A DNA stretch of 64,000 nucleotides from assembly GCF_003851885.1 (NCBI RefSeq), contig NZ_BHZE01000007.1, positions 1-64,000 of the forward strand, given 5' to 3'. Both the position numbers and the translations under genes were made by a program. Below the pieces are notes generated by a model that saw only the letters and a program-made list of their open reading frames with translations, did no database searches and was not told where the DNA came from. The stretch is from Thermaurantimonas aggregans (lineage in GTDB: Bacteria; Bacteroidota; Bacteroidia; Flavobacteriales; Schleiferiaceae). This document shows, one piece after another, positions 1,657 through 35,723 of the stretch (position 1 is its first letter; every line of letters begins with the position of its first letter).

Positions 1657-4041
1657 ATGTGGGATCGATTAGCTGTTTGGATTATCCGACAGCCGATTTT
1701 AATGTCTGTATTGCTGGCGATCTCTTTGTCGTTTGCTCTGTATAAGGCAGATGATGTCAGTATGAGTTATCAGTTTAGCCGTCTTCTGCCCACCACTGAT
1801 TCTGTACACATTCAATATCAGTGGTTCAAAGATCATTTTTCACAGGTGAGCAACACCATTGTGCTCGCCACAGCTACTGAGCATTTACAGGATTCATTAT
1901 TTATACACCAATGGACCTCACTGGCTGATAAAATTCGCAGTGTCGACGGTGTATCAGGAATCTTTACATTTAAAGATGCTTTAAATGTGCTTAAAATTCC
2001 TGAAACTGGTTCATTTAAAATCCAAAAAGTCTTTTCCTCCAAAAACGAACATGATCCCTGGACTACAGTATTGACCGACTCATTGCCTTTTTACAGGGGC
2101 GTTTTTACAGATTCAGCACGTACGGCCACTATAGCCTACATACAGCTGGACCCTACGATGCTCTACAATGCAGAAATTATTCGAATTATTAACGAAATCA
2201 AAGCTATAGTTGAACAGTTTGAAAGCGACTCACATTTAGATGTACACATTTCGGGTATTCCCTTTCTGCGGATGGGAAATGTTACACAGCTCAAAAGCGA
2301 AATTTATCTGTTTGTAGCCTTGGCTACGCTGGTTACAGCCTTGCTTTTTTACCTATTTCTCAGAAGTTTTAAAGCTACGATTATCTCTTTGATTATCGTG
2401 GCGATTGGGGTGGTATGGTCATTGGCACTCATGGCCATTTTCGGATTCGAAATTACCCTACTTACCAGTCTGATTCCTCCTTTGGTAATTGTTATAGGAA
2501 TACCGAATTGCATCTTTCTTATCAACAAGTTTCATTATGAATTTAAAAACCATAAAAACAGAGTCTTAGCGTTACAACGCACCATTTCAAAAATTGGCAA
2601 TGCCATCTTTTTTAGCAATCTGACCACAGCTCTTGGATTTTTTGCGCTTGCGTTTACAAAAAGTGCTGCGCTGGTTGAATTTGGCCTTGTAGCTTCTATC
2701 AGCATCGTTTTGATTTTTATTCATTCTCTCATAGTAATAACGCTCTATTTCTTGTACGCACCTGCACCCAAAGAGCGCCACATGCAGCACTTCGACCGCC
2801 GATGGGTAAATAAATGGACTGGAATGCTTCAAAAAGTCGTCTTTAATTACAGAGGTTGGGTATTTGGCGTAAATGTTCTGATTGTAATTGTATCAATTGT
2901 CGGTTTAGTGCGTATAAAAACCTCAGGGCGCATCACCGATGACTTGAGTCGAAATAGTAAAACGTTCACTGATTTAAAGTTTATTGAAGAAAAATTCAAC
3001 GGCATCGAACCCGTAGAAATCATCATCGATACCGGCAAAAAATTTGGCGCAAAACAATACAGCAACTTACAGCTTTTATACAAAATTCAAGATTCCTTAA
3101 AAGCCTATGGGATATCGCGCAGCTTATCGCTTGCTGATGCTGCTTCCTTTGCTACTCAGGCATTTTACAACGGAAACAGCGCCATGTATCGCATCCCTAC
3201 CAGACAAGAAAGCCGTTTTATGGCGCGCTTTTTAAAAAGTTTAGAGTCTCAAAATACGCAGGTCTCAGGTACCTTGTATGACCCCACAGAGCGCTACTTG
3301 CGAATTCATTTTCAGGTAAAAGATCTTTCGACACATGAAATGAAAAAGCTCAAACAGCAAATCTCATCAATGCTCACAAATGTGCTGAGTGACAAAGGAT
3401 TTACCGGTTTTGTAACCGGTGCTGGTGTACTTTTTTTAGAAGGTACAGAATACCTAGTAAAAAACCTCTTTCAAAGCCTCAGCATTGCTATAGCTCTTAT
3501 TGCATTGCTGATGTTTTACTTGTTTAAATCGTGGAAAATGGTACTCATTAGCCTGATTACCAATTTGATTCCACTTATTTTCACTGCCGGGGTTATGGGA
3601 TTTGCCGGTGTTCCATTGAAGCCATCAACCCTTCTGGTATTTGGCATCGCTTTCGGAATATCAGTGGACGACACCATTCACTTTTTGGCCAAATACCGCC
3701 AGGAGTTGCAAAAAACCAACTGGAATATACCCGATAGCATTCGCCTGGCTATTCATGAGACTGGCATAAGTATGTTTTACACATCAGTAATCCTTTTCTG
3801 TGGCTTTATCATATTTACCTTTTCGAGTTTTGGCGGCACGGTGGCTTTGGGCCTATTGGTATCGCTTACGCTGTTGATTGCTATGTTAACCAATCTCTTT
3901 CTGCTCCCATCCTTTGCTTTAGCACTTCACAAGCATTTAGCTGACGAAGATTTTGAAAACCCACCGCTAACGGTCGTTGATCCCGATGACCAATCGGACG
4001 ATGAACTCACAGAGAAGGAATCAATTATAGAATCAAAGTAA
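1657..4041 (+). CDS. RND/MMPL family transporter
   Basis: At 794 residues this is a two-repeat RND exporter of the MMPL type. Each half has one N-terminal helix, a large periplasmic loop and a block of five helices (about residues 215-380 and 610-765). The second block carries F-G-I-S-V-D-D-T-I-H-F in its fourth helix, the conserved acidic pair expected for proton coupling. Relatives move lipids, hopanoids or hydrophobic molecules across or out of the inner membrane; no fusion-protein or outer-membrane partner lies beside it, which favours lipid trafficking over tripartite drug efflux. The C-terminus is a short acidic tail. Its stop overlaps the convergent bshB1 gene by 9 bp. Confidence 0.9.
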   Translation: MWDRLAVWIIRQPILMSVLLAISLSFALYKADDVSMSYQFSRLLPTTDSVHIQYQWFKDHFSQVSNTIVLATATEHLQDSLFIHQWTSLADKIRSVDGVSGIFTFKDALNVLKIPETGSFKIQKVFSSKNEHDPWTTVLTDSLPFYRGVFTDSARTATIAYIQLDPTMLYNAEIIRIINEIKAIVEQFESDSHLDVHISGIPFLRMGNVTQLKSEIYLFVALATLVTALLFYLFLRSFKATIISLIIVAIGVVWSLALMAIFGFEITLLTSLIPPLVIVIGIPNCIFLINKFHYEFKNHKNRVLALQRTISKIGNAIFFSNLTTALGFFALAFTKSAALVEFGLVASISIVLIFIHSLIVITLYFLYAPAPKERHMQHFDRRWVNKWTGMLQKVVFNYRGWVFGVNVLIVIVSIVGLVRIKTSGRITDDLSRNSKTFTDLKFIEEKFNGIEPVEIIIDTGKKFGAKQYSNLQLLYKIQDSLKAYGISRSLSLADAASFATQAFYNGNSAMYRIPTRQESRFMARFLKSLESQNTQVSGTLYDPTERYLRIHFQVKDLSTHEMKKLKQQISSMLTNVLSDKGFTGFVTGAGVLFLEGTEYLVKNLFQSLSIAIALIALLMFYLFKSWKMVLISLITNLIPLIFTAGVMGFAGVPLKPSTLLVFGIAFGISVDDTIHFLAKYRQELQKTNWNIPDSIRLAIHETGISMFYTSVILFCGFIIFTFSSFGGTVALGLLVSLTLLIAMLTNLFLLPSFALALHKHLADEDFENPPLTVVDPDDQSDDELTEKESIIESK

Positions 4042-31643: not shown

Positions 31644-31943
31644 ATGTACTTCGTTTATATTCTCTATTCTACCTCTGCTGATACCTTTTACGTCGGCCAT
31701 ACCGACGACCTCCTCAAACGTCTTAATAGACACAACTCAAAATTGGAACCCTCCACAAGACGATATGCTCCTTGGATACTCCTTTGGTCAACTTCTAAAA
31801 ATTCGCGAAATGAAGCTGTGCGGCTTGAACTTAAACTTAAAAATCTCAGCCGAAAACGTAAAATCTCTTTTATGCTTCGCTATGCCGCAGGTATTTCGAG
31901 CCCAGACGAATTGAAGCTGCTGCTTCAATTGTCTGGGTGCTGA
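31644..31943 (+). CDS. GIY-YIG nuclease, copy 1
   Basis: This 99-residue protein is a minimal GIY-YIG endonuclease of the YhbQ/UvrC-like group. It has the Tyr5 and Tyr16 of the two signature strands (V-Y-I-L and F-Y-V-G), the catalytic Arg26 in D-D-L-L-K-R-L-N-R-H-N and Glu62 in R-L-E-L-K. No promoter or ribosome-binding site lies in front of the ATG, which directly follows the terminator T-run, so expression may depend on tRNA read-through. It resembles homing-type or mobile-element nucleases more than a repair protein, because it sits in a tRNA-anchored repeat. Confidence 0.9.
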   Translation: MYFVYILYSTSADTFYVGHTDDLLKRLNRHNSKLEPSTRRYAPWILLWSTSKNSRNEAVRLELKLKNLSRKRKISFMLRYAAGISSPDELKLLLQLSGC

Positions 31944-32020: not shown

Positions 32021-32320
32021 ATGTACTTCGTTTATATTCTCTATTCTACCCCTGCTGATACCTTTTACGTCGGCCATACCGATGACCTCCTCAAACTTCT
32101 TAATAGACACAACTCAAAATTGGAACCCTCCACAAGACGATATGCTCCTTGGATACTCCTTTGGTCAACTTCTAAAAGTTCGCGAAATGAAGCTGTGCGG
32201 CTTGAACTTAAACTTAAAAATCTCAGCCGAAAACGTAAAATCTCTTTTATGCTTCGCTATGCCGCAGGTATTTCGAGCCCAGACGAATTGAAGCTGCTGC
32301 TTCAATTGTCTGGGTGCTGA
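32021..32320 (+). CDS. GIY-YIG nuclease, copy 2 (catalytic Arg replaced)
   Basis: This 99-residue duplicate differs from copy 1 by only three residues: S11P, R26L and N53S. R26L (CGT to CTT) removes the arginine that is invariant in active GIY-YIG enzymes, so this copy is probably catalytically dead, while both signature tyrosines and Glu62 remain. Like copy 1 it starts directly after a T-run. Confidence 0.85.
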   Translation: MYFVYILYSTPADTFYVGHTDDLLKLLNRHNSKLEPSTRRYAPWILLWSTSKSSRNEAVRLELKLKNLSRKRKISFMLRYAAGISSPDELKLLLQLSGC

Positions 32321-32397: not shown

Positions 32398-32637
32398 CGT
32401 GTAAATCCTTAGTTCGGTTTCCGATGAATCTTTTTATGTGGTATAGACGTAATCTCTTGTATATCATATTTTTAAAGAACATATTCAGATTATGGTATAT
32501 ATCGAGAAAACCCATCTTGTTGAAATTACCCACAAGAGACAGAAGCCAAGAAATATCTATCAAAGTCTACTCCCATGAATTTCTCTTTCTTAAAGGATTT
32601 ATTTTACATGATGTTTCAGATAAAAATTGCTCAACTC

Positions 32638-32685
32638 TGCGAATACATCCGCAAAATTTTTTAAGAATTTGCGGATGCATTCGCA
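32638..32685. repeat. Palindrome P1 (TTTGCGGAT family)
   Basis: Two 18-base arms with one mismatch (32638-32655 and 32668-32685) around a 12-base AT spacer. Same family as P2-P4. Confidence 0.85.
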
Positions 32686-32897
32686 AATTTTAATACTTTT
32701 AGCATATTTACCTGTTTTACAAATATTTGTAGGCTCTTAAAAAGTCTTTTTTTGAGCGATTGCCCATACGGAAGTTCATTTTAAATTTTTTGGAAAATTT
32801 TTTTCTTGTAGTTATTCTTTTACATAAAGCTGTTATTCAAAGTTTTGTAATCTTCCTTACGTAATATTTTGCTGTATTTTTCTAAGTAAGTATAAAT

Positions 32898-32948
32898 TTT
32901 GCGATTGTATCCGCAAATTTTTTTAAGAATTTGCGGATGTATTCGAAA
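32898..32948. repeat. Palindrome P2 just downstream of the ATPase gene
   Basis: Arms at 32898-32917 and 32930-32948 share the ATCCGCAAA/TTTGCGGAT core, with mismatches in the outer part. It begins a few bases after the ATPase stop codon and could also serve as its terminator. Confidence 0.8.
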
Positions 32949-32954
32949 TTTTTA

Positions 32955-34082
32955 TTAATAAGTCAAAAACGAAGAATAGTTATTTTGATGTATATCTTTC
33001 ATGTTTTCAGGATTGTACTCTTCTTTAAAGGCAGTAGGCATACGAACGGAGGATTTGCTGGCTGACCATTTGAATTCGTATGCTGAAATAGAGCCGTCGA
33101 GCTCTTCCACATAATCTATTTCTTGCTTGGCATGGTTGCGCCAGAAGTACGAATTGGCAAAGATGCGGTGATTTTTAAGCAGTTTCATGCGCTCACTTAC
33201 CACGAAGTTTTCCCAAAGAGCACCCACATCATCGCGCATATCGAGGGGTTGAAATTGCTTGATTACAGCATTTCGGATGCCGTTGTCGTAAAAATAGATT
33301 TTCCTGGATTTTTTAAGCTCATTTCGAAGGTTGCGGCTGAAGGGGTAAAGCCTAAAAATAATAAATGCCTTCTCGAGCAGGTCGATGTAGTGTTCCACAG
33401 TTTCGTTGTCAAGTCCGCAGATTTGGCCTAGCTCATTGTATGAGACCGGGCTTCCAACTTGAAAGGCCAACGCCATCACAAGTCTTTCCATCCGATCGGG
33501 CTTTTGGATGCGCTCCCAGGTGAGGATGTCTCGATAGAGATAGCTGTTGGCGAGTTCAAATAGGATTTCCCTTTCGTTGCCCGGATTAGAAACCACCTCT
33601 GGATAATAGCCATAGAGCATGCGGTGTGTGAGCAGACGCTTCTCTTCCAGCGCTCCGTGATGCTTCACAAGTTCTTCATAGCTAAGGGGTGTCATCAGAT
33701 ATTCCCATTTGCGACCTGTTAGTGGTTCATTTACTTGATTGGATAAATCGAAAGATGAAGAGCCCGTAGCGATCACTTTTACCCCTTTCAGATGATCGAC
33801 AATCATCTTGATAACTAAACCAATATCCTTTATTCGCTGGGCTTCGTCGATAAAGAGGATTTTTTTGTCGCCGAGGAGTGTGCGCAGTAGGGTTACATTA
33901 GGGGCAGAGAGCAACTCACGCGCATCGGCTTCATCGCCATTTAGCCGGAGCACATCGTTGCGACCGGAGAGAAGGCTTTCGACCAGTGTGGTTTTACCTA
34001 CTTGTCTCGGACCAAATAAGATAATAGCTTTTTGATCGGCGAGTTTTTTTTCTATTTGGTCATTTAATATCCTGTATATCAT
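32955..34082 (-). CDS. AAA_14 ATPase with DUF4143 nuclease-like domain
   Basis: This 375-residue protein has an N-terminal ATPase domain (Walker A G-P-R-Q-V-G-K-T-T at about 24-32, Walker B I-L-F-I-D-E-A-Q-R near 75-83, sensor I-A-T-G-S-S-S) and a C-terminal DUF4143 domain. The latter includes G-A-L-W-E-N-F-V-V and an E-I-D-Y then Y-E-F-K-W pattern, which fits the D and E-x-K of a PD-(D/E)xK fold. Such genes are common, patchily distributed accessory genes of unknown function. Here it is bracketed by two palindromes on each side, and no partner gene or promoter is obvious. Confidence 0.9.
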   Translation of the reverse strand: MIYRILNDQIEKKLADQKAIILFGPRQVGKTTLVESLLSGRNDVLRLNGDEADARELLSAPNVTLLRTLLGDKKILFIDEAQRIKDIGLVIKMIVDHLKGVKVIATGSSSFDLSNQVNEPLTGRKWEYLMTPLSYEELVKHHGALEEKRLLTHRMLYGYYPEVVSNPGNEREILFELANSYLYRDILTWERIQKPDRMERLVMALAFQVGSPVSYNELGQICGLDNETVEHYIDLLEKAFIIFRLYPFSRNLRNELKKSRKIYFYDNGIRNAVIKQFQPLDMRDDVGALWENFVVSERMKLLKNHRIFANSYFWRNHAKQEIDYVEELDGSISAYEFKWSASKSSVRMPTAFKEEYNPENMKDIHQNNYSSFLTY

Positions 34083-34100
34083 GTTATCGACATGTATATC

Positions 34101-34148
34101 TGCGATTTTATCCGCATATTTTTTTAAGAATTTGCGGAAGCGTTCGCA
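34101..34148. repeat. Palindrome P3 upstream of the ATPase gene
   Basis: Left arm TGCGATTTTATCCGCA (34101-34116), right arm within 34131-34148 (TTTGCGGAAGCGTTCGCA); core TCCGCA/TGCGGA conserved. It lies 18 bases before the ATPase start. Confidence 0.75.
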
Positions 34149-34362
34149 AATTTAAACATATTCAGCATATATATTTGATTTTTAATTTATTATAAGCTTA
34201 AAAGAATCTGTTTTTTCATCATAGTGGGATATTTGATGGTTTTAGAAATTTTTGGAATATTTTTTTATTACAGATTCAATTAATTTATCTCATTACTAAT
34301 CAGTATTTTAATCTATTATTTAGTGTCATCGTTATCTTTCAAATTTACATTACTTTTAAATT

Positions 34363-34412
34363 TTGCGATTGCTTCCGCATATTCTTTAAATATTTTGCGA
34401 ATGCTTTCGCAA
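34363..34412. repeat. Palindrome P4
   Basis: Arms TTGCGATTGCTTCCGCATA and the partial complement ending TTTCGCAA, with an AT spacer. More diverged than P1 but the same pattern. Confidence 0.7.
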
Positions 34413-34464
34413 TTTTTAAAAATCAGAAAGATGTAATGCGTGTCGTTAGAAGCCTGAGCGGGTC

Positions 34465-34590
34465 GCGTGAGGTGGCCGGAAGTCGCGCGTCAGCGCGGTG
34501 CGTAGCGCAGCGAAGCACGGAAGCGAAGCGGACACTGTAGGACACCGACCCCGGCAAAAGCACCTTTAGCGCTTTGCCGGGGGCACGCCC
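34465..34590 (-). repeat. GC-rich dispersed element, copy C (short type)
   Basis: Read on the minus strand it opens GGGCGTGCCCCCGGCAAAGC, forms a strong CCCCGGCAAAGC/GCTTTTGCCGGGG hairpin, and closes CCTCACGC. It shares internal words with copy A and its first hairpin with copy D. A T-rich tract precedes it. Confidence 0.75.
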
Positions 34591-34717
34591 AATTAAAAAT
34601 TTTTTTAAAAAAATTCAGCTACTTGATGATTTGTGACAGGGGGATTTAGAGTGTGTAAATGGCTTGATGAATCTTAATGTGCTATGGTTCAAACACTTCT
34701 TGCCGTTAAAGTGTACC

Positions 34718-34742: not shown

Positions 34743-35723
34743 ATGGTAAAAATCGGCGATATTGAATTGGGCGACTTCCCAATACTGCTGGCACCGATGG
34801 AGGATGTGAGCGATCCTCCCTTCAGAAAGGTGTGTAAAAAGTATGGGGCTGACCTGATGTACACAGAGTTTATCAGCTCTGAAGGGCTGATACGCGACGC
34901 CATAAAAAGCCGTGCAAAACTGGATATATTTGATTATGAGCGACCCATTGGCATTCAGATCTTCGGCGGTGACGAGGAGGCTATGGCTATGGCCACGGAA
35001 ATCGTAGATGCGACTGGGCCCGACCTTGTGGACATCAACTTTGGATGCCCGGTAAAAAAGGTGGTGTGCAAAGGTGCGGGGGCTGCCGTACTAAAAGATA
35101 TTCCTCTGATGGAACGCCTAACTAAGGCGGTGGTAAAAAGCACCAAGCTGCCGGTAACGGTAAAAACACGCCTTGGCTGGGATGAGTCGAGCAAAAACAT
35201 AGAGAAAGTGGCTGAACGCCTTCAGGATGTAGGTATAAAAGCACTGACCATTCACGGCCGTACACGCGTTCAGATGTACAAGGGAGAAGCCGACTGGACT
35301 CTGATCGCAAGAGTAAAAGAAAACCCGAGAATTCACATTCCGGTCTTTGGCAACGGTGATATAGACTCGCCACAAAAGGCCTTAGAGTACAAAAATCGCT
35401 ATGGTGTAGATGGTATCATGATCGGACGTGCTGCCATTGGATATCCTTTCATCTTCAGAGAGGTAAAGCACTACATTGCTACAGGAGAACTGCTCCCTCA
35501 ACCGACGATCGAGGAGCGCGTAGATGCCTGTCTGCAGCATCTGGAATTCAGCCTTTCATGGAAAGGACCAAAGTTGGGCTTGATTGAGATGCGCAGTCAT
35601 TATTCAAATTACTTCAAGGGAATACCCAACTTCAAACCTTTAAAAGTTCGTTTGCTCACCAGCAACTCCCAGGATGAAGTACTGGAAATATTAAATGAAA
35701 TACGTCAACTCGAATTTGTATAA
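34743..35723 (+). CDS. dus: tRNA-dihydrouridine synthase
   Basis: The 326-residue flavoprotein has L-A-P-M-E-D-V-S-D-P-P-F-R at the N-terminus (FMN binding), N-F-G-C-P with the catalytic cysteine, V-K-T-R-L-G-W, L-T-I-H-G-R-T-R and G-N-G-D-I, ending with the short helical tRNA-binding domain. It reduces uridine in the D-loop of tRNAs with NADPH. The thiolase gene follows 6 bases later on the same strand. Confidence 0.95.
   Translation: MVKIGDIELGDFPILLAPMEDVSDPPFRKVCKKYGADLMYTEFISSEGLIRDAIKSRAKLDIFDYERPIGIQIFGGDEEAMAMATEIVDATGPDLVDINFGCPVKKVVCKGAGAAVLKDIPLMERLTKAVVKSTKLPVTVKTRLGWDESSKNIEKVAERLQDVGIKALTIHGRTRVQMYKGEADWTLIARVKENPRIHIPVFGNGDIDSPQKALEYKNRYGVDGIMIGRAAIGYPFIFREVKHYIATGELLPQPTIEERVDACLQHLEFSLSWKGPKLGLIEMRSHYSNYFKGIPNFKPLKVRLLTSNSQDEVLEILNEIRQLEFV

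Follow-up and report, generated by a model that had tools for sequence, protein, structure and literature searches.

Restriction-modification (R-M) controller proteins and toxin-antitoxin operators share a layout in which small dyads on a gene's own promoter are bound by the gene's own product, and a harmful enzyme is thereby kept in check. The locus analyzed here resembles them in having promoter dyads that are predicted to be read by the product of the gene they precede, but its product is a single polypeptide that joins a sensor ATPase to a DNA-reading and a nuclease-like domain, and the site sequence of its family diversifies between paralogues. A combination of ATPase and winged helix is also shared with Cdc6/Orc1 (2qby) and with the archaeal STAND-like ATPases SSO1545 (2fna) and PABY2304 (2qen). 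Cdc6/Orc1 likewise bind repeated sites; however, these are origin sites and the proteins act at replication origins, whereas the protein considered here also has a nuclease-like domain, and its predicted sites lie in the promoter of its own gene. SSO1545 and PABY2304 match the protein over ~255 residues with only ~19% identity, and the alignment stops at residue 275, which places the nuclease part outside it. In REP/RAYT systems, as here, palindromes adjoin the gene for a DNA-acting protein, but this locus has neither dispersed copies nor a Y1 (HUH) transposase, and its sites are gene-specific. The protein is itself assigned to PDC-S01, a phage-defence candidate composed of AAA_14 and DUF4143 domains, which is reported to rank fourth in abundance among prokaryotic defences (about 39,000 instances counted) and belongs to a set of PDCs for most of which experimental validation is pending (PMC12988326). 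Neither a description of repeats nor a mechanism was found in the literature on DUF4143/COG1373, in a search that left subscription journals and preprints mostly outside and turned up a single paper that names DUF4143. What this analysis adds to PDC-S01 is a predicted cognate array, together with a residue-base rule, both described below; they offer a first mechanistic handle on one of the commonest anti-phage candidates awaiting validation.

Within the window (the whole 64,000-nucleotide stretch of DNA that was analyzed), Pfam, PADLOC and a structure model identify a 375-aa AAA_14/DUF4143 protein encoded on the minus strand (32955-34082) by a gene that is single-copy in the genome. In agreement with the domains named in an earlier, sequence-only reading of this DNA, Pfam places AAA_14 (5.8e-30) before DUF4143 (9.3e-44), both over their cut-offs, and PADLOC returned a full-length PDC-S01 match (E 3.7e-165, residues 1-373). 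In the predicted structure of the whole protein (pLDDT 91.6), an ATPase domain is followed by a winged helix and then by a C-terminal domain. Pfam AAA_14 assigns the ATPase domain to residues 17-138 (33669-34034, minus strand), of which G24, R26, G29 and K30 are invariant among 64 homologues. For the first 275 residues, the closest folds are 2qen and 2fna (Z 16.4-16.5), followed by CED-4/NLR (Z 13-14) and Apaf-1 structures and by Cdc6/Orc1 (Z 12.8), so the N-terminal part is modeled as a STAND/Cdc6-like ATPase with a winged helix. The winged helix-turn-helix spans residues 195-247 (33342-33500, minus strand), with modeled helices at residues 195-207, 215-222 and 226-238 and a strand at 242-247. 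The third of these helices (33369-33407, minus strand) is the recognition helix, where co-variation with the upstream site is strongest, and the codon of its predicted specificity residue E227 lies at 33402-33404 (minus strand).

Conservation, the model and the list of matching folds together locate a PD-(D/E)xK-like nuclease core at residues 286-338 (33069-33227, minus strand). The residues E297, D323, E336 and K338, the last three of which supply the D...(D/E)xK motif, are 90-100% conserved, with E297 invariant. When the C-terminal domain was modeled in isolation (pLDDT 87), its structural matches were mostly PD-(D/E)xK nucleases (Can2, McrC, Hjc, EcoRV and TnsA), with modest Z scores of 5-6.7 and a best Foldseek E of 4.5e-3. 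The conserved residues uphold the earlier proposal of a PD-(D/E)xK-like C-terminus, and the fold may be of the restriction-endonuclease type. We infer that the protein has nuclease activity and functions in defence. The winged helix stands between the ATPase and the nuclease-like domain, and it is very probably this helix, rather than the nuclease, that reads DNA.

Four arrays of ~50 bp surround the gene, two on each flank, as the sequence-only reading had reported. Each array comprises two 20-bp dyads with a centre-to-centre distance of 32 bp, giving eight dyads in total. The promoter-proximal array (34099-34150; dyads 34099-34118 and 34131-34150) has its dyad centres 27 and 59 bp upstream of the start codon and has a counterpart in nearly all close homologues, and the distal upstream array occupies 34362-34413 (dyads 34362-34381 and 34394-34413). 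On the other side, one array lies immediately 3' of the gene (32898-32949; dyads 32898-32917 and 32930-32949) and one far downstream (32636-32687; dyads 32636-32655 and 32668-32687). The arrays of a pair are 230-231 bp apart on either flank. Self-complementarity of the eight dyads ranges from 12 to 18 of 20 positions, and a strict palindrome threshold proved too stringent for them, missing them because they are imperfect. Their consensus at the dyad centre is TTTGCG(A/G)(A/T)T. A core common to all four palindromes had been proposed, which holds for the left-hand pair only: all four exact matches of the 9-mer TTTGCGGAT fall in these two palindromes (0.95 expected on average by chance; four were reached in 3 of 100 shuffled sequences), and the right-hand pair carries the variants TTTGCGGAA and TTTGCGAAT.

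Viewed at a larger scale, the two flanks form a direct repeat. An upstream module of ~320 bp (34099-34418), consisting of an array, a 211-bp spacer and a second array, is repeated as a downstream module (32636-32955) with 70% identity by BLAST. Flank against flank, the arrays are 79-87% identical and the spacers 51% (shuffled spacers 43 ± 3%); dyads thus appear to have been kept while spacers diverged, which suggests an old duplication. The absence of these palindromes elsewhere, previously noted for the window, extends to the whole 2.67-Mb genome. The 70-bp palindrome family has exactly four members, and a search with the module found its second copy (E 4e-23) and nothing else below E 0.06. 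Dyads with up to two mismatches occur elsewhere in the genome 121 times, compared with 110 for the reversed pattern, which is background.

Homologues in genome collections nearly always carry the same kind of element directly 5' of the start codon. The best dyad in the 130 bp upstream scored a median of 9.5 for 106 homologues versus 5.5 for 451 other genes of the same loci (P = 3e-38), which confirms that gene and palindromes belong together, and the association extends to 72 distant DUF4143 genes of the phylum (median 8 vs 5, P = 2e-10). No clear dyad was seen upstream of four homologues (L057, L071, L101 and L134). Self-identity is in excess at lags of 32 and 64 only, and neighbouring dyads are spaced by 32 bp in 76 cases, the next commonest spacing accounting for 6. 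Most loci have two or three dyads and a few have up to nine; the longest regular array is that of L091, where nine consecutive dyads, each exactly 32 bp from the next, precede the homologous gene. A clear downstream pair is uncommon among homologues, being found at L109 and in the window, and the downstream arrays of the window are therefore an unusual arrangement. Dyad sequence varies between subfamilies and also between paralogues within one genome, as in G215, whose paralogues have different dyads. The GGAAGTTNACTTCC dyad of one of them has just two occurrences in 4 Mb, which are separated by 32 bp and both precede its own gene. Together with the differing dyads of the G215 paralogues, this placement points to private self-recognition rather than a regulon.

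Across loci, the dyads share one register and differ in their cores (CG, GG, GT[C/G]A and others). Every column of the protein alignment was scanned blind for co-variation with the site core, and the scan was repeated on 154 loci with fully automatic labelling. Residue 227, which comes second in the recognition helix, ranked top among all columns in the first scan (excess 1.22 vs 0.74) and again with the automatic label (excess 0.99 vs 0.40; z = 8.8 vs 3.0 for the next column). It was not singled out when control regions (-510 to -400, or 150-260 bp downstream) were used. In the 154-locus scan, K227 was paired with a GG core in 44/44 cases, E227 with CG in 21/24 and Q227 with CG in 11/12 (E and Q together 32/36), and N227 with GT[C/G]A in 17/20 (Fisher 2.5e-21 for the association of residue and core). 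H227 goes with GG, like K227, and KN goes with GTCA/GTGA. Finer pairings were KE with TTTCGGTT, NE or NQ with TTTGCGAT, and NL with TTTTCGAAT, and in a distant subfamily DNKTA-type helices accompany GGAAT-type dyads and GNTTTLAHYL proteins accompany ATTGAGTAAATTTACTCAAT-type dyads. Several further combinations, each seen at few loci, are possible additional letters of the code: HH at residues 226-227 with GAAGTNNACTTC-type dyads (L256, L259 and L183), RL with TTTGATAT (L122 and L273), and RN with TTCAA-type dyads (L261, L266 and L267). The rule, which was derived mostly from Bacteroidota, matched 21 of 22 decided cases among loci held out of the code and all cases in newly fetched genomes (K 6/6, E/Q 3/3). 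The window obeys it as well, with E227 and the core TTTGCG.

Shared ancestry is controlled for by the comparison with other columns, because one tree underlies all columns. When the helix was left out of tree building, six changes were counted for the core and six for the residue, with 54/54 concordant; on strongly supported branches only two of the six CG/GG switches remain, where an independent-pairs test was not significant. Enrichment of the winged helix as a whole was not significant in the first scan (P 0.11), and the signal that stands out is confined to the beginning of the recognition helix. Overall, these sequence statistics indicate co-evolution of the protein with the array upstream of its own gene, by way of the recognition helix, and the dyads upstream of a gene are very probably read by that gene's product. 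The earlier description of the locus as a target-marked unit survives to this extent, as the palindromes are very probably read by the protein, but through the winged helix and not through the nuclease. In practical terms, two residues suffice to propose the site of a homologue yet to be characterised, and paralogues within one genome may supply an orthogonal set of DNA-binding modules.

The position of the dyads was compared with that of TAnnTTTG, the -7 motif of Bacteroidota promoters. Of 118 upstream regions, 74 contain this motif within their final 60 bp (7 in shuffled sequence), most commonly 16, 17 or 19 bp downstream of the dyad centre, a distance that corresponds to the usual place of an operator. 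In the window promoter, canonical TAnnTTTG is absent between the array and the start codon. In distant subfamilies, a solitary dyad covers the start region, from about -40 to -3.

We consider it likely that the palindromes are cognate binding sites of the ATPase-nuclease they surround, with arrays on the gene's own promoter and binding that is most likely autorepressive. In the proposed mechanism, the dyads would be read by a dimer, or by a larger oligomer along the 32-bp array, via the recognition helix of the winged helix, where residue 227 would select the core bases. Given the position of the arrays on the promoter of the same gene, the most likely effect of binding would be repression, so that a potentially harmful ATPase-nuclease stays at a low, self-limited level; a trigger, plausibly infection, may then alter the nucleotide state and cause release. 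The association of array and gene, the 32-bp geometry, the symmetry at the DNA level, the co-variation of residue and base and the overlap with the promoter are all supported by computation, and the predicted binding step is strongly supported by it. Repression, which these data do not distinguish from activation, and the trigger are steps that we infer, and the regulation is testable by an ordinary reporter. The downstream module of the window could be a copy of the promoter-side module, perhaps left by a tandem duplication of module and gene in which one gene was lost, although this origin is a guess. Having kept its dyads, the downstream copy may still be bound, for instance for looping.

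Operators alone leave the long arrays (nine dyads at L091) and the downstream copies unexplained. The chief rival would account better for both: the arrays would be read by the protein mainly as an assembly or sensing platform on which oligomers are held inactive or licensed, release or array damage during infection would arm the ATPase-nuclease, and transcriptional control would be secondary. The regular spacing of 32 bp, close to three helical turns, agrees with such a role, as do arrays of up to nine units and, in the window, arrays on both sides of the gene whose dyads were kept while the spacers diverged. So does the STAND/NLR/Cdc6-like fold of the ATPase, a class that oligomerises on activation. 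However, most loci have just two or three dyads sited at the promoter like plain operators, and distant subfamilies have one dyad only, over the start region; we regard a platform as the main function as unlikely. A related proposal, to which we would give only a small chance, is that PDC-S01 proteins are single-gene immune receptors. The private, self-encoded array would serve as off-switch or assembly platform, the diversified reading helix would tether each paralogue, and loss of the tether in infection would arm the ATPase-nuclease.

Very unlikely, in our judgement, is that the palindromes are cleavage targets of the nuclease domain, with gene and sites forming a homing or restriction-like unit. 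The conserved PD-(D/E)xK motif and the very probable binding of the sites are in line with cleavage, but the sites lie in the host chromosome beside the gene, and no modification gene is present in the neighbourhood examined. Array pairs are also rare in phage contigs. A blind scan of a viral collection for paired GG dyads returned three contigs and the GCG-type pair none; two of the three had no match to the family profile, and the window protein has no close relative in that collection. On the third contig (L309), the GG-type dyad pair (3885-3928) adjoins a distant AAA_14 gene.

A self-mobilising unit had also been envisaged. On one such reading, 32636-34418 would be a mobile element with palindromes as its ends. 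The direct repeat formed by both flanks, the lack of the gene in the nearest relatives and the patchy distribution of DUF4143 genes (45 of 99 Bacteroidota genomes have them, with up to 15 copies) would all fit. Against this, in homologues the repeats are chiefly promoter-side and seldom include a clear downstream pair, no transposase-type domain is present, the gene is single-copy in the genome, and a common upstream gene at three related Sphingobacteriaceae loci indicates a fixed location. Relatives offer no clean empty site either way, since the neighbourhood beside dus is rearranged in same-genus and same-family genomes, where no target duplication could be shown. We judge a mobile element highly improbable, and palindromes beside such genes should not be taken for mobile-element ends. 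The dus gene (34743-35723 of the window) adjoins the arrays, and in the same-genus genome G553 it is preceded by elbB; neither G553 nor G021 has a DUF4143 gene.

The palindromes can fold as RNA, and in distant subfamilies they adjoin the start codon, as leader or terminator hairpins might. When mismatches were first counted over all upstream dyads, 57 were G-U-compatible and 28 were A-C, and the RNA-like reading of this imbalance was dropped when a count restricted to registered dyads, which supersedes it, gave 74 against 75. With G-U-compatible and A-C mismatches about equal, there is no sign of RNA pairing. An Rfam search of the palindromes returned chance-level eukaryotic microRNA matches only, the co-variation partner is a DNA-reading helix, and the dyad is in most cases 5' of the -7 box, all of which makes RNA hairpins exceedingly improbable. 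Finally, that REP-type dispersed palindromes lie here by chance, as their palindromic nature and length of about 20-50 bp might suggest, can hardly be credited when the genome elsewhere is at background and the palindromes are tied to the gene across many genomes; for this genome, the even spread that REP elements would show was not seen, and the REP/RAYT analogy falls with it.

Two other repeats were observed near the locus. A GC-rich repeat of ~150 bp lies by the outermost palindrome (34435-34600 of the window) and has 23 matches in the genome at E <= 1e-6, itself included. Its copies are mostly 70-78% identical, and a related copy occurs at a family member (L306, 4952-5039); it is a separate dispersed intergenic repeat with no relation to the arrays. 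On the other side of the locus, a 99-aa single-domain GIY-YIG gene is tandemly duplicated (31644-31943 and 32021-32320 of the window). The two copies are nearly identical with a start-to-start distance of 377 bp, and the terminator-like sequence downstream has been duplicated with them.
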